This document shows positions 34,282 to 55,684 of a DNA stretch of 64,000 nt, piece by piece; within the stretch, counting starts at the first letter, position 1, and each line of letters begins with the position of its first letter. The DNA is from Actinoplanes cyaneus (GTDB lineage: Bacteria > Actinomycetota > Actinomycetes > Mycobacteriales > Micromonosporaceae), in NCBI RefSeq assembly GCF_016862095.1, contig NZ_BOMH01000031.1:62001-126000 (forward strand), given 5' to 3'. Position numbers and translations under genes: made by a program. A model generated the notes under the pieces. That model was given only the letters and a program-made list of their open reading frames with translations, was not told the origin of the DNA and searched no databases.

Positions 34282-34319
34282 TTGACGAGCCGGATCGGAA
34301 AGTTACACTCCTAGTGTAA
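34282..34319 (+). promoter_or_regulatory. Promoter with overlapping palindromic operator for the liv-SDR-APH-ACAD operon
   Basis: A sigma-70-like promoter: -35 TTGACG (34282-34287), 16-base spacer, -10 TACACT (34304-34309). A perfect palindrome, TTACACT-CCT-AGTGTAA (34303-34319), covers the -10 box, so a bound dimer would block transcription. The TetR gene that ends this operon (42871) is the obvious candidate repressor. Sites read by eye. Confidence 0.6.
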
Positions 34320-34361
34320 ATAGTTGACCATCACGCTCCACAATGGATGCATGAGGTGGCC

Positions 34362-35201
34362 ATGCCGACGGAAACCCCTGCTCATGAGCTCTCGCTCGAC
34401 CACATAACGGTTCGCTTCGGCGGGCTGACCGCTCTCGACGACGTCTCCCTGCGGGTGCCCGCGGGGCACATCGTCGGGGTGATCGGGCCGAACGGCGCCG
34501 GCAAGACCACGCTCTTCAACGTCATCTGCGGGTTCGTCACCCCGACGTCCGGTGAGATCAGCCTGGACGGCAAGCCGTGGCGGCCCCGCCCGCACCACCT
34601 GAACCGGCTCGGCATCGCCCGCACGCTGCAGGGGGTCGGCCAGTTCAGCGGCCTCACCGTCCTGGAGAACGTGCAGGTCGGCGCCCGCGGCCACCACCGC
34701 CGGGGACAAGACGCCGGGCACGACGCCGGCAAAGCCGCCGGGCACGACGGCGGGAAAGCCAGCGGACAAGACGGCCGCGAGACCGACCGGCCGGCGGGCC
34801 GCGGGTGGCGAGCCGGCCGCGAGAGACTGTCCCAACAGGACGCCCTCGCGACCCTGGAGCGATGCGGTGTCGCGGAATATGCGCACCAGCACCCCGGCGC
34901 GTTGCCGTATGCGATCCGTAAGCGGATCGAGCTGGCACGCGCCCTCGCCGCCCGTCCCCGGATCCTCATGCTCGACGAGCCGGCCGGCGGCCTGGACGCC
35001 GACGAGATCCACTGGCTGGCCGGACTGATCCGGGAGATCGGGACGACGGTTCTGCTGGTCGAGCACCACATGGACCTGGTCATGTCGGTCTGCGACCAGA
35101 TCCTGGTCCTCGATTTCGGCAAGCCGATCGCGCTCGGCTCCCCCGCGGAGATCAGCACGAACGACAAGGTGACCGAGGCCTATCTGGGAGCCGCCGCATG
35201 A
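34362..35201 (+). CDS. livG: ABC transporter ATPase, LivG-type, with unusual low-complexity insert
   Basis: 279 residues. Walker A GPNGAGKTT at 42-50, Q-loop around 90-94 (TLQGVGQFSG), Walker B ILMLDEPAGGLD at 201-212, and the switch His in LLVEHHMDLV. The signature motif is degenerate (LPYAIRKRIELARALA rather than LPYGxQRR). Residues ~110-155 are a Gly/Asp/Lys/Arg-rich low-complexity insert with GHDAGK and GHDGGK repeats, placed between Q-loop and signature, where LivG proteins normally have helical-domain sequence. Start ATG 34362 follows GAGG at six bases. It is the first gene of a ten-gene operon; it energises uptake with LivF. Confidence 0.85.
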   Translation: MPTETPAHELSLDHITVRFGGLTALDDVSLRVPAGHIVGVIGPNGAGKTTLFNVICGFVTPTSGEISLDGKPWRPRPHHLNRLGIARTLQGVGQFSGLTVLENVQVGARGHHRRGQDAGHDAGKAAGHDGGKASGQDGRETDRPAGRGWRAGRERLSQQDALATLERCGVAEYAHQHPGALPYAIRKRIELARALAARPRILMLDEPAGGLDADEIHWLAGLIREIGTTVLLVEHHMDLVMSVCDQILVLDFGKPIALGSPAEISTNDKVTEAYLGAAA

Positions 35202-35968
35202 GCGCGCCCGAAACCGGCCGGCTGGACCGGTTGGACGAGCCGTACCGGAAGAAGAAACCGCTGCTGGAGGTCGAGGGCCTGACCGCCGGCTACGGCGCCG
35301 CACCGGTCCTGCACGACGTCTGCCTGACCGTCCGGCCGGGCGAGATCGTGGCGGTCCTGGGGGCGAACGGCGCCGGGAAGACCACACTCCTGCGGACCCT
35401 GTCCGGGCTGGTCAGGGCCGACGGCGGGCGCATCGCGTTCGACGGGGAGGACCTGCGCAAGGTCAGGGTGGAGCAGATGGTGCGGCTCGGCATCGCGCAC
35501 GTCCCGGAGGGCCGGGGCGTCGTCACCGAGCTGACGGTGGACGAGAACCTGCGGCTCGGCGGCCTGTGGCGGCGTGACCGCGCGGATGCGACCCGCGCCC
35601 TGAGCGAGGTCTACGACCTCTTCCCGGCGCTGGCACAACGACGTGCCAGCGCCGGGCACCAGCTCTCCGGTGGCGAGCGGCAGATGCTGGCGCTGGGCCG
35701 CGCCCTGATCGGCCGGCCCCGGCTGCTGCTGCTCGACGAGCCGTCGCTGGGCCTGGCCCCGCGGATCACCGCGCAGATCCTGGCGCTGCTGCGCGACCTG
35801 CGTGAACGCACCGGCCTCGCGGTGCTGCTGGTCGAGCAGAACGTCCGCAGCGCGCTGGCGATCGCGGACGAGGGGATCGTCCTGTCACTGGGTCGTGTGG
35901 TGACCCGCAACTCCGCGGCGGATCTGCGTGACGACGCCGACCTGCGCCACGCCTACCTGGGGTTCTGA
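35198..35968 (+). CDS. livF: ABC transporter ATPase, LivF-type
   Basis: 256 residues. Complete motif set: Walker A GANGAGKTT near residue 58, signature LSGGERQMLALGRALI near 155, Walker B LLLLDEPSLGLAP and switch His region LLVEQNVRSAL (the LivF-type Gln-Asn replacement of the His loop). The GVVTELTVDENLRLGG segment is typical of LivF. It pairs with LivG to form the nucleotide-binding unit of a branched-chain-type importer. ATG overlaps the livG stop by four bases. The N-terminal 20 residues are variable and charged. Confidence 0.9.
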   Translation: MSAPETGRLDRLDEPYRKKKPLLEVEGLTAGYGAAPVLHDVCLTVRPGEIVAVLGANGAGKTTLLRTLSGLVRADGGRIAFDGEDLRKVRVEQMVRLGIAHVPEGRGVVTELTVDENLRLGGLWRRDRADATRALSEVYDLFPALAQRRASAGHQLSGGERQMLALGRALIGRPRLLLLDEPSLGLAPRITAQILALLRDLRERTGLAVLLVEQNVRSALAIADEGIVLSLGRVVTRNSAADLRDDADLRHAYLGF

Positions 35969-35978
35969 GGAACAGACG

Positions 35979-36857
35979 ATGGACAGATTTATCTACCTGA
36001 CCTTCGACGGGTTGAGCCGGGGCGCGGTCTATGCCGCGTTCGCGCTGGCCCTGGTGCTGATCTGGCGCGCGGCGCGGATCGTCAACTTCGCGCAGGGCGC
36101 CATGGCGGTCGCGGCCGTCTACGTGGCGTACTCGGTGACCGAGAAGACCGGCTCCTACTGGCTCGGCTTCGCCGCGGCGCTCGTCTTCGGGCTGCTGCTG
36201 GGCATCGCGGTGGAGAAGGCGGTGATGCGCTTCGTCGACCATTCGTCGCCGCTCAACGGCGTGGTCGTCGCGCTCGGCCTGGTGCTGGTCGTGCAGGGGG
36301 TGCTCGGCATCGTCTACGGCAACGAGTTCCGGCCGGTCGAGACGCCGTTCGCCCGGGACGCGTTCCAGATCGGCGGGATCGCGGTGCTGAGCCGCTACGA
36401 CGTCTTCGTGTTCGCCGCGGTGGGCGCGGTGGTCGTCGCTCTCACGGTGCTCTTCACGCGTACGTCGGTGGGCCTGCGCATGCGTGCCGCGGCGTTCGCC
36501 CCGGACGTGTCGCGGCTGCTCGGTGTCCCGGTCGGCGGCATGCTGACGCTGGGCTGGGCGCTGGCCGCCGCGGTCGGGTCGCTCGCCGGGATGCTGGTCG
36601 TCCCGACCGAGCTGGGCCTGAATCCGAACGCCATGGACGTGCTGTTCGTGTCGGCGTTCACGGCGGCCGTGGTGGGTGGGCTGGACAGCCCGATCGGCGC
36701 GGTGACCGGCGGGCTGGTCGTCGGGCTGCTGCTCTCCTACGTCAGCGGTTACCTGGGCGCGACGGTCGCCCCGATGGCGGTGCTGGCGCTGCTGGTCGTG
36801 GTCCTGCTGGGCCGGCCGGGCGGGCTCTTCTCCAGTTCGAAGGCGAGGCTGGCATGA
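35979..36857 (+). CDS. livH: Branched-chain-type ABC permease, LivH-like
   Basis: 292 residues, about eight membrane segments. The family signature region appears as GLSRGAVYAAFALALVLIWRAARIVNFAQGAMA at the N-terminus, and the EAA-like loop in AAFAPDVSRLLGVPVGGMLTLGWALAAAVGSLAGML. ATG 35979 is ten bases after the livF stop. It forms the membrane channel with LivM; substrates of this importer family include branched-chain amino acids, urea, amides, and carboxylic acids, so the family does not fix the substrate. Confidence 0.9.
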   Translation: MDRFIYLTFDGLSRGAVYAAFALALVLIWRAARIVNFAQGAMAVAAVYVAYSVTEKTGSYWLGFAAALVFGLLLGIAVEKAVMRFVDHSSPLNGVVVALGLVLVVQGVLGIVYGNEFRPVETPFARDAFQIGGIAVLSRYDVFVFAAVGAVVVALTVLFTRTSVGLRMRAAAFAPDVSRLLGVPVGGMLTLGWALAAAVGSLAGMLVVPTELGLNPNAMDVLFVSAFTAAVVGGLDSPIGAVTGGLVVGLLLSYVSGYLGATVAPMAVLALLVVVLLGRPGGLFSSSKARLA

Positions 36858-37873
36858 CGGACATCAAGGAGAAGCGGCCGGTCACCACGACCCGGCCCAC
36901 CACCCGGAAACCCAGAAGACACCCGCATCCGATCTGGTACGCCGTGGCCGGCGCGGTGCTCGTCGTGGCGCTCACCTACGTCCTGCCGCCGTTCCGGAAC
37001 TACCAGCTGGCCACGGTCGGCGCGTACTTCACCGTGACCGCCGGCCTGACCGTCCTCACCGGACTGAACGGGCAGCTGTCGCTCGGGCACGGCGCCCTGA
37101 TGGCCACGGGCGCGTACAGTTTCGCGCTCGCCCAGAACAAGTGGCTGAACATGCCGCTCAGCATCGTCGCCGCCCTGATCACCACGACTCTGGCGGGCGT
37201 GGTGATCGGGCTGGCGGCGGCTCGCCTGCGCGGCCCGTACCTGGCCGGTCTCACGCTCGCGGTGGCGGTCGTCGTCCCGTCGGTGACCAGCACGTTCGAC
37301 GAGACGCTCGGCAGCGACATGGGCCTGTCGATCGCGCTGGACCCGCCACCCGGGGTGCTGCCGATGGAGCAGTGGCAGGCGTGGCTGTGCTGGGGCGGCG
37401 CGCTGGTCACGACGTTCCTGCTGGCCATGCTCGTGCGTGGACGGTTCGGGCGGGATCTGCGCGCGGTGCGCGACGACGAGACCGCGGCCCGGCTCGCGGG
37501 GGTGAACGTCGCCCGTACGCAGGTGCTGGCCTTCGTGGTGAGCGCCGCCTGCGCCGGCCTGGCCGGCGCCCTCTTCGCCTTCCTCGCGCAGAGCGTCTCG
37601 CCGGGGGCGTTCCCCCTGACGCTGTCGCTGTTCCTGGTGATGGCGATCGTGATCGGCGGCCTGGGCCGGCTGGCCGGCGCGCTCTGCGGCGCGTTGTTGC
37701 TGGTCCTGCTGCCGGCGCTGGCGCAGACCGCCGGTGAACGCTCCGGCTCGCAGCACCTGGAGGGAAACCTCGCCCTGGTGATCTTCGGCCTGGTGCTGGT
37801 GGTCGTCATGCTTGCCGCCCCGGGCGGCCTCGCATCAATCCGATTTTCCACGATATCCAGGAGGAAACGATGA
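36854..37873 (+). CDS. livM: Branched-chain-type ABC permease, LivM-like
   Basis: 339 residues with about ten membrane segments. The LivM hallmarks are visible: YTVTAGLTVLTGLNGQLSLGHGALMATGAYSFALAQN (here YFTVTAGL...), LRGPYLAGLTLAVAVVVPS, and the EAA loop RDLRAVRDDETAARLAGVNVARTQVLAFVVSAACAGLAGALFAF. The 35-residue N-terminus is basic and cytoplasmic. Start overlaps the livH stop (ATGA). Together with LivH, LivF, LivG and the binding lipoprotein, it completes a five-component importer. Confidence 0.9.
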   Translation: MTDIKEKRPVTTTRPTTRKPRRHPHPIWYAVAGAVLVVALTYVLPPFRNYQLATVGAYFTVTAGLTVLTGLNGQLSLGHGALMATGAYSFALAQNKWLNMPLSIVAALITTTLAGVVIGLAAARLRGPYLAGLTLAVAVVVPSVTSTFDETLGSDMGLSIALDPPPGVLPMEQWQAWLCWGGALVTTFLLAMLVRGRFGRDLRAVRDDETAARLAGVNVARTQVLAFVVSAACAGLAGALFAFLAQSVSPGAFPLTLSLFLVMAIVIGGLGRLAGALCGALLLVLLPALAQTAGERSGSQHLEGNLALVIFGLVLVVVMLAAPGGLASIRFSTISRRKR

Positions 37874-39129
37874 AACGCACCACGGCGGTGTTCCTCGCCG
37901 TCCTCTTGTTCGCCGGGGCCTGCGACGGGTCCTCGACCTCCTCCAGCAGCGGAGGAACCACCCCGGGCGTGACCGACACCGAGATCGTTCTCGGCACGCA
38001 CATGCCACTGACCGGGCCGGCCGCCGCGGGTTACTCCAAGATCGCGCCGGCCACCAAGGCCTACTTCGACTTCGTCAACGCGGGCGGCGGGATCAACGGC
38101 CGCAAGATCACCTACAAGGTCAAGGACGACGCCTACAACCCGGCGACCACCCAGCAGGTGGTGCGTGAGCTGGTGCTGCAGGACAAGGTCTTCGCGATCA
38201 TGGGCGGTCTGGGCACCCCGACGCACTCCGGCGTGCTGGACTTCCTGAAGACCAACAAGGTTCCGGACCTGTTCGTGGCCAGTGGCAGCCGCAGCTGGAA
38301 CCAGCCGGACAAGTATCCGGGCACGTTCGGCTTCAACCCCGACTACACCGTCGAGGGCAAGATCCTCGGCACGTACGTCAAGGAGAACCTGGCCGGCAAG
38401 AAGGCCTGCTTCCTCGGTCAGGACGACGACTTCGGGCAGGACAGCCTGGCCGGCATCGAGAAGATCCTGGGCGCGGTCGTGGCCAAGCAGACGTACGTGA
38501 CCAGCAACCCGAACGTCGGCCCGCAGATGGGCGCGCTCAAGTCGGCCGGCTGCGAGGTCGTCCTGCTGGCGACGATCCCGGGCTTCACCGCCCTCTCGAT
38601 CGGCACCGCCGCGAAGATCGGCTTCAAGCCGCAGTTCGTGGTCAGCAACGTGGGCTCCGACCCGGCCACGGTCGGCAAGGCGCTGGGCGCGGCGGCACCG
38701 CTGCTGGAGGGCGTCGTCTCGGCGAACTATCTGCCGCTCAACACCGACGACACCAGCCCCTGGATCCAGCTGTTCAAGAAGGTCAACGACCAGTACAACG
38801 CCGGTGCGGAGTTCGACAACAACGTCGTCTACGGCATGTCCGCGGCGTACCTTCTCGTGCAGTCGCTGCAGGCCGCGGGCAAGGATCTGACCCGGGACGG
38901 CATCACCGCCGCGGTCAAGAAGAACGGTTTCCAGGGCCCGGGGCTGGTCCCGCTGCGCTTCTCCGACAAAGATCATTCGGGGTACGGCGGTGAGCAGTTG
39001 ACCAAGGTCCAGGGCGGCAAGGCGGTCTTCTTCGGCCAGGCGTACACCACCGACGACGGCGACGGCGCGGTGCAGCCCTTCACCGGTCAACCCGTGACAC
39101 CCCCGCAGAACGGGATCCCGGCAGCGTAA
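37870..39129 (+). CDS. livK: Periplasmic-binding-type substrate lipoprotein of the Liv importer
   Basis: 419 residues, type I periplasmic-binding fold. A short signal sequence ends in FAGAC, a relaxed lipobox that predicts a lipoprotein tethered outside the membrane. The mature protein begins with a Ser/Gly-rich spacer followed by GVTDTEIVLGTHMPLTGPAAAGYSKI, the strand and ligand loop of LivK/Peripla_BP_6 proteins, and GGGINGRKITYKVKDDAYNP. It would capture the substrate for LivFGHM. The start overlaps the livM stop (ATGA). Its ligand is unknown; operon context suggests a carboxylic acid. Confidence 0.88.
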   Translation: MKRTTAVFLAVLLFAGACDGSSTSSSSGGTTPGVTDTEIVLGTHMPLTGPAAAGYSKIAPATKAYFDFVNAGGGINGRKITYKVKDDAYNPATTQQVVRELVLQDKVFAIMGGLGTPTHSGVLDFLKTNKVPDLFVASGSRSWNQPDKYPGTFGFNPDYTVEGKILGTYVKENLAGKKACFLGQDDDFGQDSLAGIEKILGAVVAKQTYVTSNPNVGPQMGALKSAGCEVVLLATIPGFTALSIGTAAKIGFKPQFVVSNVGSDPATVGKALGAAAPLLEGVVSANYLPLNTDDTSPWIQLFKKVNDQYNAGAEFDNNVVYGMSAAYLLVQSLQAAGKDLTRDGITAAVKKNGFQGPGLVPLRFSDKDHSGYGGEQLTKVQGGKAVFFGQAYTTDDGDGAVQPFTGQPVTPPQNGIPAA

Positions 39130-39172
39130 TATCCGCACTCTGAGTGCATAAACAAGCTATGGAGGTAGTGCG

Positions 39173-39916
39173 ATGGCGGACCAAGTGGCGATCGTGACCG
39201 GGGCAAGCCGGGGAATCGGGTTCGCCATCGCGCAACGCTTCGTGGCCCAGGGCACGAAGGTCGCGATCACCGGACGCGACGCGGACGCCCTGGCGGCAGC
39301 GGTGAAGGAGCTGGGCGGCCCCGGGGTCGCCCTCGGGGTGGCGGGCAAGGGCGACGACGCGGGCCACCGGGCAGCCGTGATCGACCAGGTCAACGACGCA
39401 TTCGGGCCGGTCACCACCCTGATCAACAACATCGGCATCAACCCGGCGTACGGGCCGCTGGCCCAGCTCGACCTCAACGCCGCGCGCAAGATGGCCGAGG
39501 TCAACCTGATCGGCACGCTCGGCTGGGTGCAAGAGGCGCTGCGCGGTGGCCTCGCCGGCGGCGGCTCGGTCGTCAACATCTCGTCGGTCTCGGGCGTGCG
39601 CCCGGCGCCCGGCATCGCGTTCTACGGCACCACCAAGGCCGCGCTGATCCACCTCACCGAGGAGCTCGCCGTCGAGCTCGCCCCGAAGATCCGGGTCAAC
39701 GCGGTCGCACCGGCCGTCGTGAAGACCCGCTTCGCGGCTGCGCTCTTCGAGGGCCGCGAGGAGCAGGTCACCGCGACCTACCCGCTCAAGCGGCTGGGCG
39801 CGCCCGAGGACGTGGCCGGCGCTGTCGCGTTCCTCTGCTCCCCCGACGCGTCGTGGATCACCGGGCAGACCATCGTGATCGACGGCGGCGTCACCCTGAG
39901 CGGGGTGGTCGAGTGA
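39173..39916 (+). CDS. Short-chain dehydrogenase/reductase, FabG-like, first of a pair
   Basis: 247 residues. NAD(P) motif TGASRGIG at residues 10-17, NNIG in [13 protein letters not shown], catalytic Ser in SSVSG, and Tyr-x3-Lys in YGTTKAA. C-terminal [29 protein letters not shown] is standard for FabG-like SDRs. It starts 43 bases after livK with a GGAGG Shine-Dalgarno. In lva-type operons one SDR reduces the 4-oxo group of a 4-oxoacyl-CoA; that is my suggested role, but general 3-hydroxyacyl-CoA dehydrogenase activity is equally compatible with sequence. Overlaps the next SDR by four bases. Confidence 0.85.
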
Positions 39917-40692
39917 CCCGGGTCGTCGTCACCGGCGCCGGCGGCGGCATCGGCGCGGCCCTCGCACGGCGCTTCGCCGCGGACGGCGCGCAGGTCGTGG
40001 TCAGCGACATCAACCCCGCCGCGGCCTCCGCGGTGGCCGAGGAGATCGGCGCGGTCGCGGTCGCCGCCGATGTGGCTTCCGAGGCCGACGTACGCGCTCT
40101 GGTCGCGACCGCCGAGAAGGAACTGGGCGGCATCGACCTGTTCTGCTCGAACGCCGGCGTCCTCAGCGCCGGTGACGAGAACACCCCGGACCAGCAGTGG
40201 GACCGCGACTTCGGGGTGAACGTGATGTCGCACGTCTACGTCACCCGCGCCCTGCTGCCCACCTGGCTGGACTCCGGAACGCCGAAGCGGCTGCTGATCA
40301 CGGTGAGCGCCGCGGGACTGCTGACGTTGCTGGGCAGCGCGACCTACTCGGTGACCAAGCACGCGGCTCTGGCGTACGCGGAATGGCTGCGAGCCACGTA
40401 CGCGCATCGGGGTCTGATCGTCCAGGCCCTGTGCCCGCAAGGGGTTCGCACCGACATGCTGACCGGTGGAGACGCCCGTGGCAGCGGCAGCGCGGCCCTG
40501 CTCGCCGAGGGCGCCCTGGAGCCGTCCGCCGTGGCGGATCTGGTCGCCGGGTCCGTACAGGGGAATCAGTTCCTGATCCTGCCGCATCCCGAAGTCGCGG
40601 AGTACTACCGCTTGCGCGCGGCAGATCCCGACCGTTGGCTGGGTGGCATGAACAAGATGCAGCGTGGCTTCGAACAGCGAGCGTCGTCATGA
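39913..40692 (+). CDS. Short-chain dehydrogenase/reductase, second of a pair
   Basis: 259 residues from GTG 39913, which overlaps the preceding stop (GTGA). Motifs: TGAGGGIG at residues 7-14, CSNAGV, catalytic Ser-Tyr-Lys in [21 protein letters not shown]. It is not close to its neighbour by eye and has an unusual C-terminus ([16 protein letters not shown]) that appears in SDRs annotated near acyl-CoA dehydrogenases. Having two different SDRs next to an APH/ACAD pair suggests oxidation and reduction of hydroxyacyl or oxoacyl intermediates of the same pathway. Confidence 0.85.
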
Positions 40693-41669
40693 AGGGTCTC
40701 GACCTGGAGAAACTCCAGGCCTATCTGGACAGCCCGCCGCTGACCGGGACGATGTTCGCGGGCGGCCGGTCGAACCTGACGTACGCGGTGACCGACGGGA
40801 CGAACCGCTGGGTGCTGCGCCGGCCGCCGCTCGGTCACGTGCTGCCGACCGCGCACGACATGGTTCGTGAGCACAAGGTCCTCGACGCGCTGTCGAAGGC
40901 GGGCTTCCCGGTGCCGAGGCCGGTGCGGCTGTGCACCGACGCCGAGGTCATCGGGGCGCCGTTCTACCTCATGGAGCACGTCGACGGGAAGATCTACCGG
41001 GACGCCGCCGACCTGGAGAAGGTCGACATCGGCGCACTGACTATGACGCTCGTCGACACCCTGGCCGACCTGCACGCCCTGGTCCCCGGCGAGATCGGGC
41101 TGGGCGACTTCGGCAAGGCGGAGGGTTTCAACGCCCGTCAGGTGCGCCGCTGGAAGCAGCAGCTCGACGCGTCCCGCAGCCGTGAGCTGTCCGGCATCGA
41201 GGAGCTGCACGCGCGGCTGGCCACGGACATCCCGGCCGGTGGCCCGGGCGCCGTGGTGCACGGCGACTTCCGGCTCGACAACGTGCTAATCGGCGAGAAC
41301 CAGCAGGTCAAAGCGGTGCTGGACTGGGAGATGTCGACGCTCGGGGACCCGCTCAGCGACCTCGCCCTGATGCTCGTCTACGCCGGCCGGCCGCTGCTCA
41401 TCTCCGACGGCAAGCCGTTCGCCTCGATCGACCTGCCCGGCCATCCCTCGCTGGACGAGATGTCGGCCCGCTACGCGCAGCGCAGTGGCCGCGACGTCAG
41501 CGACCTGCACTGGTACGTGGGGTTCGCCGCGTTCAAGCTCGCCGTCATTCTGGAGGGCGTGCACTACCGCTACACCAAGGGCCAGACCGTCGGCGCCGGC
41601 TTCGAAACGGTGGGCGCGATGGTGCCCGCGCTGGTCGAGCAGGGCCACCGAGCGCTGGAAGGACACTGA
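40689..41669 (+). CDS. APH-like kinase of the ACAD10/11 phosphotransferase group
   Basis: 326 residues. Protein-kinase-like APH fold: a Gly-rich start ([15 protein letters not shown]), the ATP-binding Lys/Arg region WVLRRPP, catalytic loop [12 protein letters not shown] (HGDxxxxN) and the metal-binding Asp in [20 protein letters not shown]. These features and the neighbouring acyl-CoA dehydrogenase match the phosphotransferase family of ACAD10/11 and the bacterial LvaA kinase, which phosphorylates the 4-hydroxyl of 4-hydroxyacyl-CoA. Start ATG 40689 overlaps the SDR stop (ATGA). The stop shares one base with the following ACAD start (TGATG). Confidence 0.86.
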
Positions 41670-42874
41670 TGGACTTCGAGTTCGACGCGACCACCGAGGA
41701 CTACCGTAAGCGGTTGCTCGCGTTCATGGACGAGCACGTGTACCCGGCCGAGGACGAGTATCACGCCGGCGGGGACGGGTGGGAGGCACCGCCCGTACTG
41801 GAGGATCTGAAGAACGCGGCGAAAGCCGCCGGGCTCTGGAACCTCTTCCTGCCCGGGGAGCACGGCGCCGGGCTGACGAACCTGCAGTACGCGCCGCTGG
41901 CCGAGATCATGGGCCGCAGCCCGGCGATCGCGCCGCCCGCCCTGAACTGCAACGCGCCGGACACCGGCAACATGGAGGTGCTCGCCGAGTTCGGCACCCC
42001 GGCGCAACAGGAGCAGTGGCTGAAGCCGCTTCTGGAGGGTTCCATCCGGTCCGCCTTCGCGATGACGGAGCCGCAGGTCGCGTCGTCCGACGCGACGAAC
42101 ATCGGCACCCGGATCGAACGGGACGGCGACGAGTACGTCATCAACGGCCGCAAGTTCTACATCACCGGCGCGATGAACCCGAACTGCAAGATCTTCATCG
42201 TGATGGGCAAGACCGACCCGGACGCCGACCGGCACGTCCAGCAGAGCCAGATCCTGGTCCCGCGGGACACCCCGGGCCTCACGATCAAGCGCGGCATGAC
42301 CGTTTTCGGCTACACCGACGGCGACCACGGCGGCCACGCCGAGCTGCTCTTCGAGAACGTCCGCGTGCCGGCGAGCAACCTGATCGGTGTCGAGGGCGGC
42401 GGCTTCGCGATCTCCCAGGCGCGGCTCGGCCCCGGCCGGATCCACCACTGCATGCGGCTGATCGGCATGGCCGAGCGCGGCCTGGAGCTGATGTGCCGGC
42501 GAGCGCTGGAGCGCACCCCGTTCGGCAAGCCGCTCGCCGAGCAGGGCGTGATCCAGGACTGGATCGCCGAGTCCCGGGTCCGGATCGAGCAGGCCCGCCT
42601 GCTCGTGCTCAAGGCCGCGTGGCTGATGGACACCGTCGGCAACAAGGGCGCGCACACCGAGATCCAGGCCATCAAGATCGTGGTGCCGCAGACCGTCGAG
42701 TGGATCCTGGACAAGGCGATCCAGGCCCACGGCGCGCTCGGCACCAGCCAGGACACGCCGCTCGCCCACCTCTGGGTGTCGGCCCGCACGCTGCGTCTCG
42801 CCGACGGCCCCGACGAGGTGCACAAGCGCTCGCTGGCCCGGCGGGAGCTGAACCGTTACCGGAGTCGTCAGTGA
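41669..42874 (+). CDS. Acyl-CoA dehydrogenase of the ACAD10/11 type
   Basis: 401 residues. FAD-dependent acyl-CoA dehydrogenase fold: [65 protein letters not shown], and the C-terminal [19 protein letters not shown] and [16 protein letters not shown]. The GRIHHCMR and DEVHKR motifs are typical of ACAD10/11-like enzymes, which in lva operons and in mammals process 4-phospho-hydroxyacyl-CoA. Sharing a base with the kinase stop (TGATG) shows tight translational coupling. A general beta-oxidation dehydrogenase cannot be excluded. Confidence 0.88.
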
Positions 42875-43446
42875 CCACACCACCGCGCGTCGACGGTCGC
42901 ACCGCACGGTCCGAGAGGACACGTAACGCGATCGTCGACGCCCACCTCCGGTTGATCGCCGAGGGCGACCTGCGCCCCACGGCGGACCGGATCGCCAAGC
43001 TCGCCGGGGTCTCGTTGCGCGCGCTGTGGAGCCACTTCGCCGACATGGAGGCGTTGATGGCGGCCAGCGGGCAGCGGGTCCTGGAGCAGCGCGACGCGTC
43101 GTACCGGTCGATCCCGCCGGAGCTGCCGCTGGCCGAGCGGATCGAGACGTTCAGCCGGCAGCGGGCCCGGATGCTGGAGGAGATCGGCCCAACGGCGCGG
43201 GCGTCCGCGCTGAAGGAGCCGTTCTCCAGCGCGCTGCAGCGCTACCGCCGGTTGCACGTCGCCCGCGTCCGTGACGAGCTGACCAGCACGTTCCCGGAGG
43301 AGATCGGGACGGACGAGGATCTGCTGAACGCGCTGACCGCGATCAGCCTGTGGCCTACGTGGTCGACCTGGCGCGAGGCGATGGGCCTGCCCGTGGAGGC
43401 GGCGCAGGCGGCTCTCGCCCGCAGCGTGCGGTCGCTGCTGTCCTGA
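42871..43446 (+). CDS. TetR-family regulator, last gene of the liv-ACAD operon
   Basis: 191 residues from GTG 42871, overlapping the ACAD stop (GTGA). N-terminal TetR helix-turn-helix: [54 protein letters not shown]. The C-terminal domain is short and divergent. A regulator encoded at the end of its own operon usually autorepresses it; the palindrome over the operon's -10 box at 34303-34319 is a fitting site. The inducer would then be a substrate or CoA ester of the pathway. Confidence 0.85.
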
Positions 43447-43507
43447 CGGGTCGGGCTCCCGGGCTCGCTTCGCCAATGGTTGCTGCCCGGTGGCCGGCGG
43501 CCGGCGG

Positions 43508-43570
43508 CCGGTCGCCGGTGGCCGGTGGCCGGTCGCCGGTGGCCGGTGGCCGGTCGCCGGTGGCCGGTGG
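43508..43570. repeat. 21-bp tandem repeat, three perfect copies
   Basis: Three identical units (CCGGTCGCCGGTGGCCGGTGG at 43508-43528, 43529-43549, 43550-43570), with degenerate GGCCGGC runs on both sides. The units are GC-only except two T/A positions and follow directly after the TetR gene. A 21-base period keeps reading frames open on both strands, but nothing supports coding. Confidence 0.85.
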
Positions 43571-43678
43571 CCGGGGTGCTCGCCAGGCGGCGTGGGCTGG
43601 TGGTCGCGGTGGTTTCCGCCGGTCGCGGTGCCGAGATGCCACGGTCGCCGGCCCGCGGTGCGACCACGGCATCGCCGG

Positions 43679-50504: not shown

Positions 50505-50927
50505 ATGCCGTCGGAACAGTACGTCAAACCCGCGCCGTCACCCAGGGTGATTGTGGCCGCGGTGATCATCGCGGGCGGGCGGGTGCTCGCCTGTCAGCGC
50601 AGCGCCCCGCCGGAGGCGGCCGGCAAATGGGAGTTCCCCGGCGGCAAGGTCGAGCCCGGGGAGAGCGACCAGCAGGCGCTGGCCCGGGAATGCGCCGAGG
50701 AGCTCGGCATCGCCGTCGAGGTCGGCGAGCGGGTCGGCCCGGACGTGCCGCTGGCCCACGGCCGGGCCGTGCTCCGGGTCTACGCCGTCGAGGTGCTCGA
50801 CGGCGGCGTTCCGGAGGCGCTGGAGCATTCCGCCATGCGCTGGCTGGCCGTGGACCAGTTGAACAGTGTCCCGTGGTTGCCCGCCGACGTCCCGATCGTC
50901 GCCGAGCTCCCGGCGTTGCTGGCCTAA
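50505..50927 (+). CDS. NUDIX hydrolase, MutT type
   Basis: 140 residues. NUDIX box: GKVEPGESDQQALARECAEELGI (GX5EX7REUXEEXGU complete) at residues 48-70. The short length and the preceding VIVAAVIIAGGRVLACQRSAPPEAAGKWEFPGGK are typical of MutT/8-oxo-dGTPase. It would hydrolyse 8-oxo-dGTP or related nucleotides to prevent mutations. The stop lies next to the convergent acyl-CoA ligase stop (four-base overlap). ATG 50505. Confidence 0.88.
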   Translation: MPSEQYVKPAPSPRVIVAAVIIAGGRVLACQRSAPPEAAGKWEFPGGKVEPGESDQQALARECAEELGIAVEVGERVGPDVPLAHGRAVLRVYAVEVLDGGVPEALEHSAMRWLAVDQLNSVPWLPADVPIVAELPALLA

Positions 50928-52459
50928 ACCGAGTACTGCTTGCGCAGCTCCCGCTTGAGGACCTTCATGCTGGGCCCGAGCGGGAGCGACTCGGCGAAGC
51001 GGACCTGCCGCGGGTACTTGTGCTTGCCCAGCCGTTCGCGCGACCAGTCGATCAGCTCCTGCTCGGTCAAGCCCTTGTCCTCCAGGACCACCACGGCGCA
51101 GATCTCCTCGCCGTGCGTCCCGTCCGGCACCCCGATGACCGCGACCTGCTGGATCGCCGGGTGCCGGGCGATGACCTCCTCCACCTCGCGCGGGTAGACG
51201 TTGAAGCCGCCCCGGATGATCAGATCCTTGGTGCGGTCGACGATGCTGATGAACCCCTCGTCGTCCTTCACGCCCAGGTCACCGGTACGGAACCAGCCGT
51301 CCACGATGGCCTCCGCGGTGGCCTCCGGCCGATTCAGGTAACCGGCGAAGATGTTGTGACCGCGGATCACGATCTCCCCCATCTCGCCCGTCGGCAGGAA
51401 CTCGATGCGCTCCGGCACCTCGGGGCGCGCGATCTCCACCTCGACGCCCCAGATCGGATGCCCGACGGTGCCGGGCTTGGCGCCGTACGCCGGCTGATTG
51501 GTCGTTGCCGTCGGTGACGTCTCGGACAGCCCGTAGCCCTCCCAGATGTGCGACCCGAACGTCTCGGCGAAGCGCTCGAGCACCGCCACCGGCAACGACG
51601 CACCACCGGAGACGCAGAGCTTGAGCTTGGGCAGGCGCTCCGCCTTCGCCGCCGCCTCGAGCAGGCCGATGTACATGGTCGGCACCCCGTGGAAGATCGA
51701 CACGTTCTCCCGCAGGATCAGCTCGATCGCCGCCTCGCCGGAGAACCGGGGCAGCAGCACGAGGGTCCCGCCGAGCCGGAACGTCGCGTTCATCCCGACC
51801 GTCTGGCCGAACGTGTGGAACAGCGGCAGGCAGCCCAGCACCACGTCCTCGCCGGTGATCGGGTGCACGTCGAAGACGTTGACCGCGGCGTTCATCACCA
51901 GGTTGAGGTTGGTGAGCAGGGCGCCCTTCGGCTTGCCCGTGGTGCCGCTGGTGTAGAGGATCACCGCGATGTCCTCGGCCTGACGGGTCACGTAGGTGTG
52001 CAGCGCCGGGACGCCGGCCGCTACCTCCTCCAGGCGCCGCGGCGGGTTCGGCAACTCGGCCGGCAACGGGCCGACGTTCACCAGCGGCGTGCCGGAGATC
52101 TGCGCCGCGGCCGCTCCCACCTGCAGGAACGCGGAGTGCGTGACGATCAGGTCGGCCTGGCTGTCGGCGAGGACGTAGGCCACCTCCTCGGGCTGCAGCA
52201 GCAGCGACACCGGCACGACCCGGGCCCCCACGGTCAGCGCCGCGTAGTAGACCCGGGGGAAGTCGGCGACGTTCGGCAGCATCACGGCGACCGTGCTGCC
52301 CGGGCCGATGCCCAGCTCCTGCAGGCCCGCCGCGTACTCCCGGGCCTGCTGCCACAACTCGCGGTACGTGATCCGGGCGCCCGCGTCGACCACCGCCACC
52401 TTCTCCGGGTACCGGCGCGCGCTCTCCGCCAGAACTGTCGCCAGGGACAGTGTCGTCAT
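50924..52459 (-). CDS. Long-chain fatty acyl-CoA ligase (AMP-forming)
   Basis: 511 residues from ATG 52459, preceded by GGAGGGG. AMP-binding motifs: YTSGTTGKPKGA near residue 165, GYGLSETSP near 305, and DGWFRTGDLG near 385; the conserved catalytic Lys is near the C-terminus in PLGPSMKVLKREL. It activates a carboxylic acid to acyl-AMP and then acyl-CoA. It is divergent from a TetR gene whose operon carries aldehyde and alcohol dehydrogenases, so a route alcohol to aldehyde to acid to acyl-CoA is a consistent reading. The same enzyme could also feed the operon at 34-43 kb. Confidence 0.92.
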   Translation of the reverse strand: MTTLSLATVLAESARRYPEKVAVVDAGARITYRELWQQAREYAAGLQELGIGPGSTVAVMLPNVADFPRVYYAALTVGARVVPVSLLLQPEEVAYVLADSQADLIVTHSAFLQVGAAAAQISGTPLVNVGPLPAELPNPPRRLEEVAAGVPALHTYVTRQAEDIAVILYTSGTTGKPKGALLTNLNLVMNAAVNVFDVHPITGEDVVLGCLPLFHTFGQTVGMNATFRLGGTLVLLPRFSGEAAIELILRENVSIFHGVPTMYIGLLEAAAKAERLPKLKLCVSGGASLPVAVLERFAETFGSHIWEGYGLSETSPTATTNQPAYGAKPGTVGHPIWGVEVEIARPEVPERIEFLPTGEMGEIVIRGHNIFAGYLNRPEATAEAIVDGWFRTGDLGVKDDEGFISIVDRTKDLIIRGGFNVYPREVEEVIARHPAIQQVAVIGVPDGTHGEEICAVVVLEDKGLTEQELIDWSRERLGKHKYPRQVRFAESLPLGPSMKVLKRELRKQYSV

Positions 52460-52494
52460 GCTGGTTCCCCTCCGAGTGATGTACGTCGCAGCTT

Positions 52495-52525
52495 GCGCAT
52501 AAACTAGCGGCGTAAGTTTTTGCGC
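52495..52525. promoter_or_regulatory. Probable TetR operator between ligase and TetR gene
   Basis: GCGCATAAACT (52495-52505) and AGTTTTTGCGC (52515-52525) form an inverted repeat with one mismatch and a nine-base centre, in the AT-richest part of the divergent promoter region. Size and spacing fit a TetR site. Confidence 0.5.
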
Positions 52526-52563
52526 GTCCAGTGTTGATTTCCGATTTCCAGGGAGTTGCCAAC

Positions 52564-53189
52564 ATGGCAAGGCCACGACAGGCGCTGCTCACCCGGGAGC
52601 GCATCGTCGAGGCCGCCGCGACCCTGATCGACGCCGAAGGCCTGGACGCGCTGTCGATGCGACGGCTCGCGACCGAGCTGGGCGTGCAGGGCCCGTCGCT
52701 CTACAACCACTTCGCCACGAAGGCGGAGATCGTCGACGCGGTCGCCGAGGCGGTGGTCGCGCAGGTGGACATCGACGTGTTCGCCGACTGCGACTGGCGG
52801 GAAGGGCTGCGGCTCTGGGCGAAGTCGTACCACGCGGTGCTCACCGCCCACCCGAACATCGTCCCGGTCCTGGCCACCGGTCCCGGCCGCCGGCCGCACG
52901 GGCTGGCCATGGCCGAGGCCGTCTACGGCGCCCTGATCGACGCCGGATGGTCCCGGTCGCGGGCCACCCACATCGGCGCGCTCATGCGCTACCTGATCAC
53001 CGGGTCGGCGCTCGGCTCGTTCGCGCTCGGCTTCGACAACGACCCGGAGCTGTACGACCGCTATCCGCACCTGCACCGCGCCCACGAACTGCCGGCCCAT
53101 CGCGCCGCGGTCGACGAGGGCGCGTTCGAACTCGGGCTGGACGTGCTCATCGCCGGCCTGTCCGACCACTACGACCAGGGGGTACGCCG

Positions 53190-53193
<4 letters not shown>
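52564..53193 (+). CDS. TetR-family regulator (TetR_C_1 type)
   Basis: 209 residues from ATG 52564, after a GGGAG Shine-Dalgarno. DNA-binding domain at residues 9-55 ([49 protein letters not shown]). The C-terminal domain resembles the tetracycline-repressor-like class. It is divergent from the acyl-CoA ligase and co-translated with the aldehyde dehydrogenase (ATGA). It probably represses both directions until an acyl or alcohol ligand appears. An upstream in-frame ATG at 52531 would add eleven residues, but homology starts at MARPR. Confidence 0.88.
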
Positions 53194-54595
<1,402 letters not shown>

Positions 54596-54599
<4 letters not shown>

Positions 54600-55684
54600 G
54601 CCACTACGTTTCCGGACTGGTCGTGCGCGAGGGTGGTGGCCCGGCCACCGTCGAGGAGCTGCGGCTGCCCGAGATCGGCCCCGGCCAGGTTCGCGTACGT
54701 GTCCGGGCAGCCGGCGTGTGCCACTCCGACCTGTCGATGATCAACGGGACGCTGCGGCCGCCGCACCCGCTCGTCCTCGGCCACGAGGCGTCCGGCGAGG
54801 TCGTCGAGGTTGGCGAGCACGTCACCCGGGCCGCGGTCGGCGATCACGTGGTGCTGAACTGGCAGCCGCCGTGCCGCAACTGCTGGTTCTGCGACCACGG
54901 GCAGCCGTGGCTCTGCTCCACGTCCTCCGGCGTCGCGGCCCTGGAGAACGGGATCACCCTCGACGACGCGCCGGTGCACGTGACGCTCGGCCTCGGCGCG
55001 TTCGCCGAGCAGGTCGTCGCGCCGGAGAACGCCGTCATCGCCGTACCGCGGGAACTGGATTTCGAGGTGGCGGCGCTGCTCGGGTGCTCGGTGCTGACCG
55101 GGTCCGGCGCGGTCCGCAACACCGCCGACGTGCAGCCGGGCGAATCGGTGCTGGTCATCGGCCTGGGCGGGGTCGGGCTGTCGGTCGTCGCGGCGGCCCG
55201 GGCGGCCGGCGCCGGGCAGGTCATCGCGGTCGACGTCAGCGAGGCCAAGAAAGGGCTCGCCGAGGCGGCCGGCGCGACCGACTTCGTGGTCTCGTCGGAC
55301 GCGCTCTCCAAGGACATCCGGGTACGCACCGAAGGCCGCGGCGCCGACCACGCCATCGAATGCGTCGGCCGGGCGTCGACGATCCGCGCGGCGTGGCGGG
55401 CCACCCGGCGCGGCGGGCAGGTCACCGTGGTCGGGATGGGCGCGGCCGACGACATGGTGCAGATCGCGGCGCTCGACATCTTCTCGTCGGCGCGGACCCT
55501 GCGAGCCTCCGTCTACGGCCAGGCGGACCCGGACATCGCGGTGCCCGCCCTGGCCCGGGACGTGCTCGACGGCACGCTGTCGCTCGACCACCTGATCACC
55601 GACCGGATCGAGCTGGCCGACGTGCCGGCCGCGTTCGAGCGGATGGCGCGCGGCGAGGGTGCCCGCTCGGTCGTCCGGCTCTGA
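54596..55684 (+). CDS. Zinc-dependent alcohol dehydrogenase (MDR)
   Basis: 362 residues. Catalytic zinc site: [20 protein letters not shown], and the Cys in [14 protein letters not shown]; structural zinc cysteines are in [17 protein letters not shown]. Rossmann motif GLGGVGL. Such medium-chain enzymes oxidise alcohols with NAD, often linked to mycothiol in actinobacteria. It is the last gene of the TetR-ALDH-ADH unit. A terminator-like hairpin follows seven bases after the stop. Confidence 0.9.

Follow-up and report, generated by a model that had tools for sequence, protein, structure and literature searches.

A TetR-linked gene cassette of Actinoplanes cyaneus that couples a Liv-type importer to an ACAD10/11-like kinase and dehydrogenase: a candidate uptake and degradation system for hydroxylated carboxylic acids

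We analysed a stretch of 64,000 nucleotides of the Actinoplanes cyaneus genome (contig NZ_BOMH01000031.1, positions 62,001 to 126,000), called the window below and numbered from its first letter. It holds, at 34347-43446 on the + strand, a cassette of ten genes for a Liv-type ATP-binding cassette (ABC) importer (livG, livF, livH, livM and livK), two short-chain dehydrogenases (SDR1 and SDR2), an APH-fold kinase (APH), an acyl-CoA dehydrogenase (ACAD) and a TetR-family regulator, in that order. We think it rather probable that this cassette serves, under TetR control, to take up and degrade a hydroxylated (or 4-oxo) carboxylic acid or its precursor. The more specific reading, in which an ABC importer was joined in actinobacteria to phospho-elimination of the ACAD10/11 type, under one TetR, for the environmental scavenging of 4-hydroxylated or 4-hydroxy-yielding lipids or acids, is tentative, and we regard it as plausible rather than probable. 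The cassette is a variant of the ACAD10/11-Lva kind, and what is new in it is the linked importer, the TetR operator and the synteny with a ligase block.

That 4-hydroxy acids can be broken down by phosphate elimination has only recently been worked out, in mammals (2024-2025) and in a Pseudomonas pathway. ACAD10/11-like genes are common in actinobacteria, and we know of no food molecule for them there; the present locus, where a single importer, binding protein, repressor and operator come together, offers a handle on the purpose of the pair. If our reading is true, bacteria would possess an uptake route for 4-hydroxylated compounds, whose breakdown in mammals has had an explanation only since 2024-2025, and a protein of the LivK type would serve as their natural sensor. 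The locus is also a caution not to take such importers for amino acid transporters, or such kinases for aminoglycoside phosphotransferases, on the strength of a name.

The kinase (APH, 40689-41669, +; PF01636, 181 bits) is of the ACAD10/11-LvaA type and the dehydrogenase (ACAD, 41669-42874, +) of the ACAD10/11-LvaC type. The available part of PMC12440821 names D220, N225, R86 and R176 as kinase residues of ACAD11 and R626, H634, R637 and D753 as its ACAD residues, and in that of PMC11342911 Burkholderia bacterial orthologues substituted for ACAD10 domains in vitro. Comparison with the cassette proteins showed the equivalents to be D193, N198, R60 and R150 in the kinase and R252, H260, R263 and D379 in the ACAD; for R60 the numbering maps two off R86, and the position beside the alpha-C Glu fits. 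The catalytic Asp and Asn of PKL/APH kinases (D193 and N198) and the CoA-contacting Arg (R150) are present in the former, and the catalytic Asp replacing Glu, the HCMR motif and the Arg eight residues before the motif His are all present in the latter. Among the fetched loci, the kinase residues were conserved in 148/148 APH alignments of at least 45% identity, and the equivalents of R626, H634 and R637 in 144/144 and of D753 in 143/143 ACAD alignments of at least 45% identity, while in ACAD alignments under 45% identity from the same loci (n=22) the catalytic place was a Glu in 16 and an Asp in 6. The closest PDB entries to the kinase were 9o56 (deposited as 'aminoglycoside phosphotransferase'), then ACAD11 (8v3v/8v3u) and 3dxp, and those to the ACAD were 4hr3 and three ACAD11 sequences (8v3u, 8v3v and 2wbi) at 432-441 bits, versus 154 bits for other ACADs. 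Because the diagnostic residues of ACAD10/11/LvaC are kept, phospho-elimination of 4-hydroxyacyl-CoA by the APH and ACAD proteins is the best reading of the pair and is well supported by sequence. An earlier note on this DNA had called the ACAD ACAD10/11-like and the kinase related to that of the lva operon, which the distinguishing residues of ACAD10/11 and LvaC bear out, and the protein motifs that it stated, DEVHKR included, are present. The PA3973 paper (PMC9736018) was set aside, its available part dealing with an AidB-type ACAD that is unrelated.

An ACAD match at E<=1e-90 was found in 97 of the 121 genomes of our family sample, and an ACAD of at least 50% identity to that of the window lay within 3 kb of the APH gene in 72/72 of the loci of Streptomyces, Amycolatopsis and related genera (L127-L198), in 8/8 of loci L119-L126 and in 36/37 of loci L039-L078, the figures being only 19/40 for loci L204-L243 and 3/5 for the plasmid loci.

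Linkage of importer and kinase was surveyed in the family sample and in a class sample of 148 genomes. LivK orthologues occurred in 59 of the 121 family genomes, at 61 places, 27 of which were within 10 kb of an APH match. The class sample, outside the genome of A. cyaneus itself, gave 42 LivK places, of which seven were within 10 kb of APH; these seven, in families f14, f23 and f32, were among the ten best-scoring places, and none of the 32 lower-scoring places was linked. For genomes of 3-4 Mb we estimate that chance would give such proximity at no more than about 1% of places. The place counts left out 31 weaker or later family APH rows, all of which lie more than 10 kb from every unlinked LivK place, and the class APH rows of genomes without a LivK match. 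Forty class loci were also fetched, with LivK within 10 kb of APH in four (L222, L228, L229 and L230) and with Liv ATPase or permease matches and no LivK match in two (L217 and L240). These counts support the conclusion that the importer is genetically tied to the kinase-ACAD pair beyond chance.

A tree of 108 APH rows placed the 31 liv-linked rows in three clades, and the label changed six times (at least five of these on starred branches) as against a mean of 27 after shuffling. The tree was a quick build with several long branches, for which 16 of the 71 loci L128-L198 were kept and L126, L079-L097 and L099-L118 excluded, and L135, with only 4.2 kb of contig on its upstream side, was scored as unlinked. 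Two genomes (G102 and G010) each have one liv-linked and one unlinked kinase, in different clades. Since gain and loss are indistinguishable in these label changes, importer and kinase were joined either repeatedly, or once with frequent loss.

Comparison of the liv loci with and without the kinase pair showed that a TetR gene stands beside liv in 26 of 27 and in 15 of 19, respectively. The 19 loci without the pair also kept an aldehyde dehydrogenase (ALDH) gene in ten and an alcohol dehydrogenase (ADH) gene in ten, and because kinase-free loci so often keep these genes, the pathway that the importer serves is a broader one, which either gained the kinase pair or lost it. Gene-content counts such as these cover the fetched stretches, with downstream stretches for 20 loci. 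Two sets of 46 liv loci were used: the one for operators contains a duplicate (L046 = L126) and hence 45 distinct loci, and the one for gene content includes L076 and omits L126. At L076 (9548-13138) the livK frame has no stop where livK would be expected to end and runs on across the APH region as far as the ACAD end; a sequencing error or a chance open frame may be the cause.

The regulator gene (42871-43446, +; GTG start) matches PF00440 at 25.9 bits (cut-off 24). A perfect TetR-type palindrome, TTACACT-CCT-AGTGTAA (TTACACTCCTAGTGTAA), lies at 34303-34319, 27 bp before livG, and in the 10.36-Mb genome NTACACTNNNAGTGTAN with at most one mismatch occurs at one place, as against six for the reversed control pattern. 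The site before livG was found with at most one mismatch in 33/46 and with at most three in 42/46 liv loci, the values for 2218 control stretches being 0 and 0.5%. By hand count, the site at up to three mismatches was present in 41/42 loci with TetR and in 1/4 without TetR. A second operator-like site, CCGCACTCTGAGTGCAT, lies at 39133-39149, before SDR1; its variant core RCACTNNNAGTGY was exact upstream of SDR1 in 9/37 loci and within one mismatch in 18/37, the window included (control 0.5% and 1.6%). In the upstream region of TetR itself the RCACTNNNAGTGY core recurred at up to one mismatch in 9/45 (control 2.7%). A TetR_N domain and a conserved palindrome at the predicted target promoters are thus both present. 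Because the palindrome recurs before livG, and its variant before SDR1, one TetR probably controls both importer and enzymes, as a putative repressor.

The importer is complete, as the earlier note had described, and has the five-part architecture of the Liv (HAAT) family. It consists of two ATPases, livG (34347-35201, +; PF00005, 98.8 bits; PF12399, 29.6 bits; the start may be the ATG at 34362) and livF (35198-35968, +; PF00005, 112.4 bits), two permeases, livH (35979-36857, +; PF02653, 96.5 bits, scanned from 35928) and livM (36854-37873, +; PF02653, 145.1 bits), and one Peripla_BP_6 binding protein, livK (37870-39129, +; PF13458, 196 bits). This architecture and its domain families are shared with LivJ/K-FGHM of E. 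coli; the cassette importer differs from the branched-chain HAAT/Liv importers in scoring far under the cut-offs of the curated NCBIfam LivG/F/H/M and urea models and in its linkage to acyl-CoA chemistry. LivK itself matches such models weakly (best 26.5 bits). In the leucine-isoleucine-valine type protein LIVBP we take Glu226 to be the acidic residue that contacts the ligand ammonium; the position of LivK aligned to it is non-acidic, with an invariant Asp nearby, though the profile alignment is thin (hhalign probability 4%). LivK is probably a lipoprotein, its Cys18 being invariant in 11 relatives.

The best solved relative of LivK by sequence is 4n03, going by its title a fatty acid ABC transporter binding protein of Thermomonospora curvata. 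The predicted structure of LivK (mean pLDDT 80.7, built from 11 sequences) shows a Peripla_BP_6-type fold, and its structural neighbours were drawn from the 1000 best of Foldseek and re-ranked by Z, the best 50 being listed. As judged from this model they include binders of amino acids, aromatic acids, urea and fatty acids. Entry 4n03 is among the four top neighbours and has the highest identity to LivK (25%) of the 50 listed. Because the neighbours bind such varied ligands, and the top four lie within 1.3 Z, the fold leaves the ligand of LivK unsettled.

No ligase lies inside 34347-43446. The earlier note had found it absent from the operon and had suggested that the one at 50.9 kb could serve; this gene is confirmed as an acyl-CoA ligase (50924-52576, -; PF00501, 314 bits; GTG start as called, although translation probably begins some 36 codons downstream of it), and its block adjoins the cassette in relatives. 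By synteny the block also includes TetR2 (52531-53193, +; PF00440 and PF02909), its probable regulator, ALDH (53190-54599, +; best NCBIfam match TIGR04284, 444 bits, under the cut-off of 775) and zinc ADH (54596-55684, +; PF08240 and PF00107). In the window 7.5 kb of other genes separate it from the cassette. About 70 bp separate the cassette TetR from the start of the block, its gene order unchanged, in A. utahensis (L122); the block follows the cassette in opposite orientation in A. siamensis, A. aureus and A. italicus (L119-L121), and in other genera (L108, L110, L113 and L118) further ACAD, SDR and MaoC genes follow or interrupt it. The ligase orthologue was found in 15/27 loci with liv, APH and ACAD, in 6/19 liv loci without the pair and in 3/20 ACAD loci without liv. 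Four more of the 27 have another ligase only, and the orthologue of L120, cut by the end of the sequence, was not counted. The three loci with the orthologue and no liv (L044, L051 and L063) keep the cassette SDR1, SDR2 and ACAD, and in six others (L048-L050, L076, L229 and L230) a different ligase is directly 3' of ACAD. At L051 and L063, SDR1-SDR2-ACAD is followed by another ACAD and the ligase orthologue, with an operator-like site before SDR1 and no liv or APH in the fetched stretch.

Control of the ligase by the cassette TetR was also considered and is unsupported, since an operator-like site at up to one mismatch was found in 0/24 ligase upstream regions. The TetR2 promoters share a different site, resembling TTAAACTAGCGGTGTAA (L099:9620, L100:6000, L120:20191, L122:14424 and L124:16303). 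The ligase/ALDH/ADH block probably has its own operator, and we read it as being controlled by TetR2.

The following route would join these genes. LivK, at the outer face of the membrane, would bind the compound and LivHMGF would import it; an alcohol would be converted to the acid by the linked ADH and ALDH, and the synteny of its block suggests that the 50.9-kb ligase would form the CoA ester. One of the SDRs, SDR1 (39173-39916, +; PF13561; NCBIfam PRK07231, 277 bits versus a cut-off of 215; nearest solved relative DHRS4, 3o4r) or SDR2 (39913-40692, +; GTG start; PF00106, 134.7 bits), may make or interconvert the 4-hydroxyacyl-CoA. By homology to ACAD10/11 and to LvaA/LvaC, whose activity is published, the APH kinase would phosphorylate the 4-hydroxyl, and the ACAD (Asp379, HCMR, Arg252) would remove the phosphate by flavin-assisted elimination to give a 2-enoyl-CoA. 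Beta-oxidation would complete the breakdown. TetR would repress the livG and SDR1 promoters at operators like TTACACT-N3-AGTGTAA, which sequence comparison places there, and would presumably be released by an accumulating intermediate.

Some relatives carry thiolase and MaoC hydratase genes in or beside the cassette, which fit this pathway because the enoyl-CoA product would need them. In cassettes of other genera, divergent thiolase and MaoC genes stand between livK and SDR1 in L046, L052 and L053, thiolase alone is found in L054, L061 and L098, and the L048-L050 cassettes contain MaoC together with a zinc ADH between the SDRs (Pfam runs on these cassettes covered L046, L048 and L054). With ADH, ALDH, thiolase, MaoC and additional ACAD genes in the neighbourhood of relatives' cassettes, breakdown of the imported compound would seem to require steps besides the removal of one 4-hydroxyl.

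Comparison with known systems showed both likeness and difference. In the lva operon of P. putida and P. citronellolis, kinase, ACAD and SDR are likewise encoded together, with a ligase in the wider locus. By gene content, as far as the available part of PMC6692424 gives it, the cassette has a Liv ABC importer instead of the ActP-type symporter LvaF/LvaG of the two Pseudomonas clusters, a TetR instead of the sigma54 regulator LvaR, and, instead of a ligase of the LvaE type within the gene set, a ligase encoded apart from it in the block that also holds TetR2 and the extra ALDH and ADH. LvaB is missing from the cassette, whose ten genes are all assigned and whose APH and ACAD genes share a single base at their junction; it is also missing in P. 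citronellolis, according to the same part of that paper. With mammalian ACAD10/ACAD11, whose product is given as a 2-enoyl-CoA in the available parts of PMC12440821 and PMC11342911, the cassette pair shares the two families, the catalytic residues and the HCMR motif, and it differs in that kinase and ACAD are separate genes in the bacterium, linked to those of an ABC importer, a TetR and SDRs. The Streptomyces/Amycolatopsis loci share the APH-ACAD core (72/72), often an SDR2-like gene within 10 kb (65/72) and some ligase (50/72); they differ in that LivK occurs in 0/72 of the fetched stretches and that the ligase is of another branch (32-41% identity). No paper joining ACAD10/11-Lva chemistry with an ABC importer was found in a literature search without most subscription journals, and within that scope the claim that the combination is undescribed stands.

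Other explanations of the cassette were weighed. That the APH protein is an antibiotic-modifying kinase with unrelated neighbours is very improbable: it belongs to the Pfam APH family and matches NCBIfam APH(3') and Mph models, yet weakly and far under their cut-offs, and we rejected this reading on those scores, on the nearest solved structures (9o56, ACAD11 and 3dxp) and on the frequent ACAD neighbour. It is also unlikely, to a much lesser degree, that the importer is for an ordinary nutrient, for instance branched-chain amino acids, and that the kinase and ACAD handle an unrelated or endogenous hydroxy acid, tied to it by co-regulation only. The low scores against the curated Liv and urea models speak against this, as do the linkage of importer and kinase in three kinase clades, the fatty-acid entry 4n03 as best relative by sequence with the top identity among the listed structural neighbours, and the catabolic genes of liv loci without the pair (ligase in 6/19, ALDH and ADH each in 10/19).

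A levulinate pathway of the lva type with a different transporter would explain the kinase, ACAD and SDR, and the SDR would then have the role of LvaD, which reduces levulinyl-CoA to 4-hydroxyvaleryl-CoA in the available part of PMC6692424. The symporter and sigma54-dependent regulator described there for the two Pseudomonas clusters are both missing from the cassette, and the thiolase, ADH, ALDH and extra ACADs of relatives suggest a longer or more complex substrate; we regard levulinate as a rather poor candidate. A bulky isoprenoid or steroid-like substrate, the side chain of which would be activated by ADH, ALDH and ligase and from which kinase and ACAD would clear a 4-hydroxyacyl-CoA en route, is somewhat better placed and still improbable. 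It is possible because an ACAD nearest to 6wy8 (Tcur3481) and 4x28_D, which we take to be steroid alpha2-beta2 ACADs, stands upstream of livG in at least 17 fetched liv loci of other genera (counted by hand from the best 40 of 63 matches). In line with it, the APH-ACAD pair of a Sphingopyxis plasmid sits with P450, ferredoxin, ALDH and SDR genes, and the APH of a Rhodococcus plasmid with a 37% ACAD, AtuA, carboxylase, thiolase and ligase genes. However, 6wy8 is matched at a modest 100.6 bits, and the window lacks the upstream ACAD: the sole match there is the ACAD of the cassette, at 27% across 132 residues. Several points weigh against uptake and phospho-elimination of a 4-hydroxylated acid as we propose it: at 34 of the 61 family LivK places a kinase is missing within 10 kb, LivK is structurally as close to valine-bound 3lkb as to fatty-acid 4n03, levulinate as the substrate would be a guess, and a bulky isoprenoid or steroid-like substrate is possible. 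What stands of the earlier interpretation is the type of kinase and ACAD, the importer linkage and the ligase; for levulinate or a particular 4-oxo acid there was no pointer.

The ten genes are as tightly packed as the earlier note had described, seven of the nine junctions overlapping by 1 or 4 bases. The two others are the livF-livH gap of 10 bases and the livK-SDR1 gap of 43 bases, and because the latter contains the operator-like palindrome the cassette may form two transcription units rather than one; a single ten-gene operon is doubtful, given this second site before SDR1. The start at 34282 proposed earlier takes in the upstream region, the first start codon being at 34347. The gene order is conserved in relatives, for example in L039-L043, L045 and L119-L125, the nearest named relatives in the scan being Actinoplanes species (best APH identity 90%, A. 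siamensis). In the A. cyaneus genome the cassette is the sole match to its own APH (E<=1e-40), ACAD (E<=1e-90) and LivK (E<=1e-40), although 51 matches were counted for the wider APH family of Pfam.

On another contig of the A. cyaneus genome, a DUF2855 gene (L245:401-1465, -; G000:C112:7067) is immediately preceded by a perfect TTGCACTACGAGTGCAA. This gene is a possible, weak candidate for a further TetR target; its place in the regulon, beside a perfect TTGCACTNNNAGTGCAA, is weak, the DUF2855 copy of L098 being without such a site. Sites resembling TTGCACTNNNAGTGCAA are also often found near the upstream ACAD at L054:16800-17939 and its counterparts. On the Deinococcus sp. NW-56 plasmid (L203), genes for an SDR, MaoC, a thioesterase, a gluconolactonase-like protein, an ACAD, an SDR, an APH and a histidine phosphatase stand together, and the levulinate cluster of P. 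citronellolis also has a histidine phosphatase gene in the available part of PMC6692424. Directly 3' of TetR, at 43480-43590 and at the edge of the 7.5-kb stretch before the ligase block, the window contains a GC-rich run of repeated units like CCGGTGGCCGGTCGCCGG.

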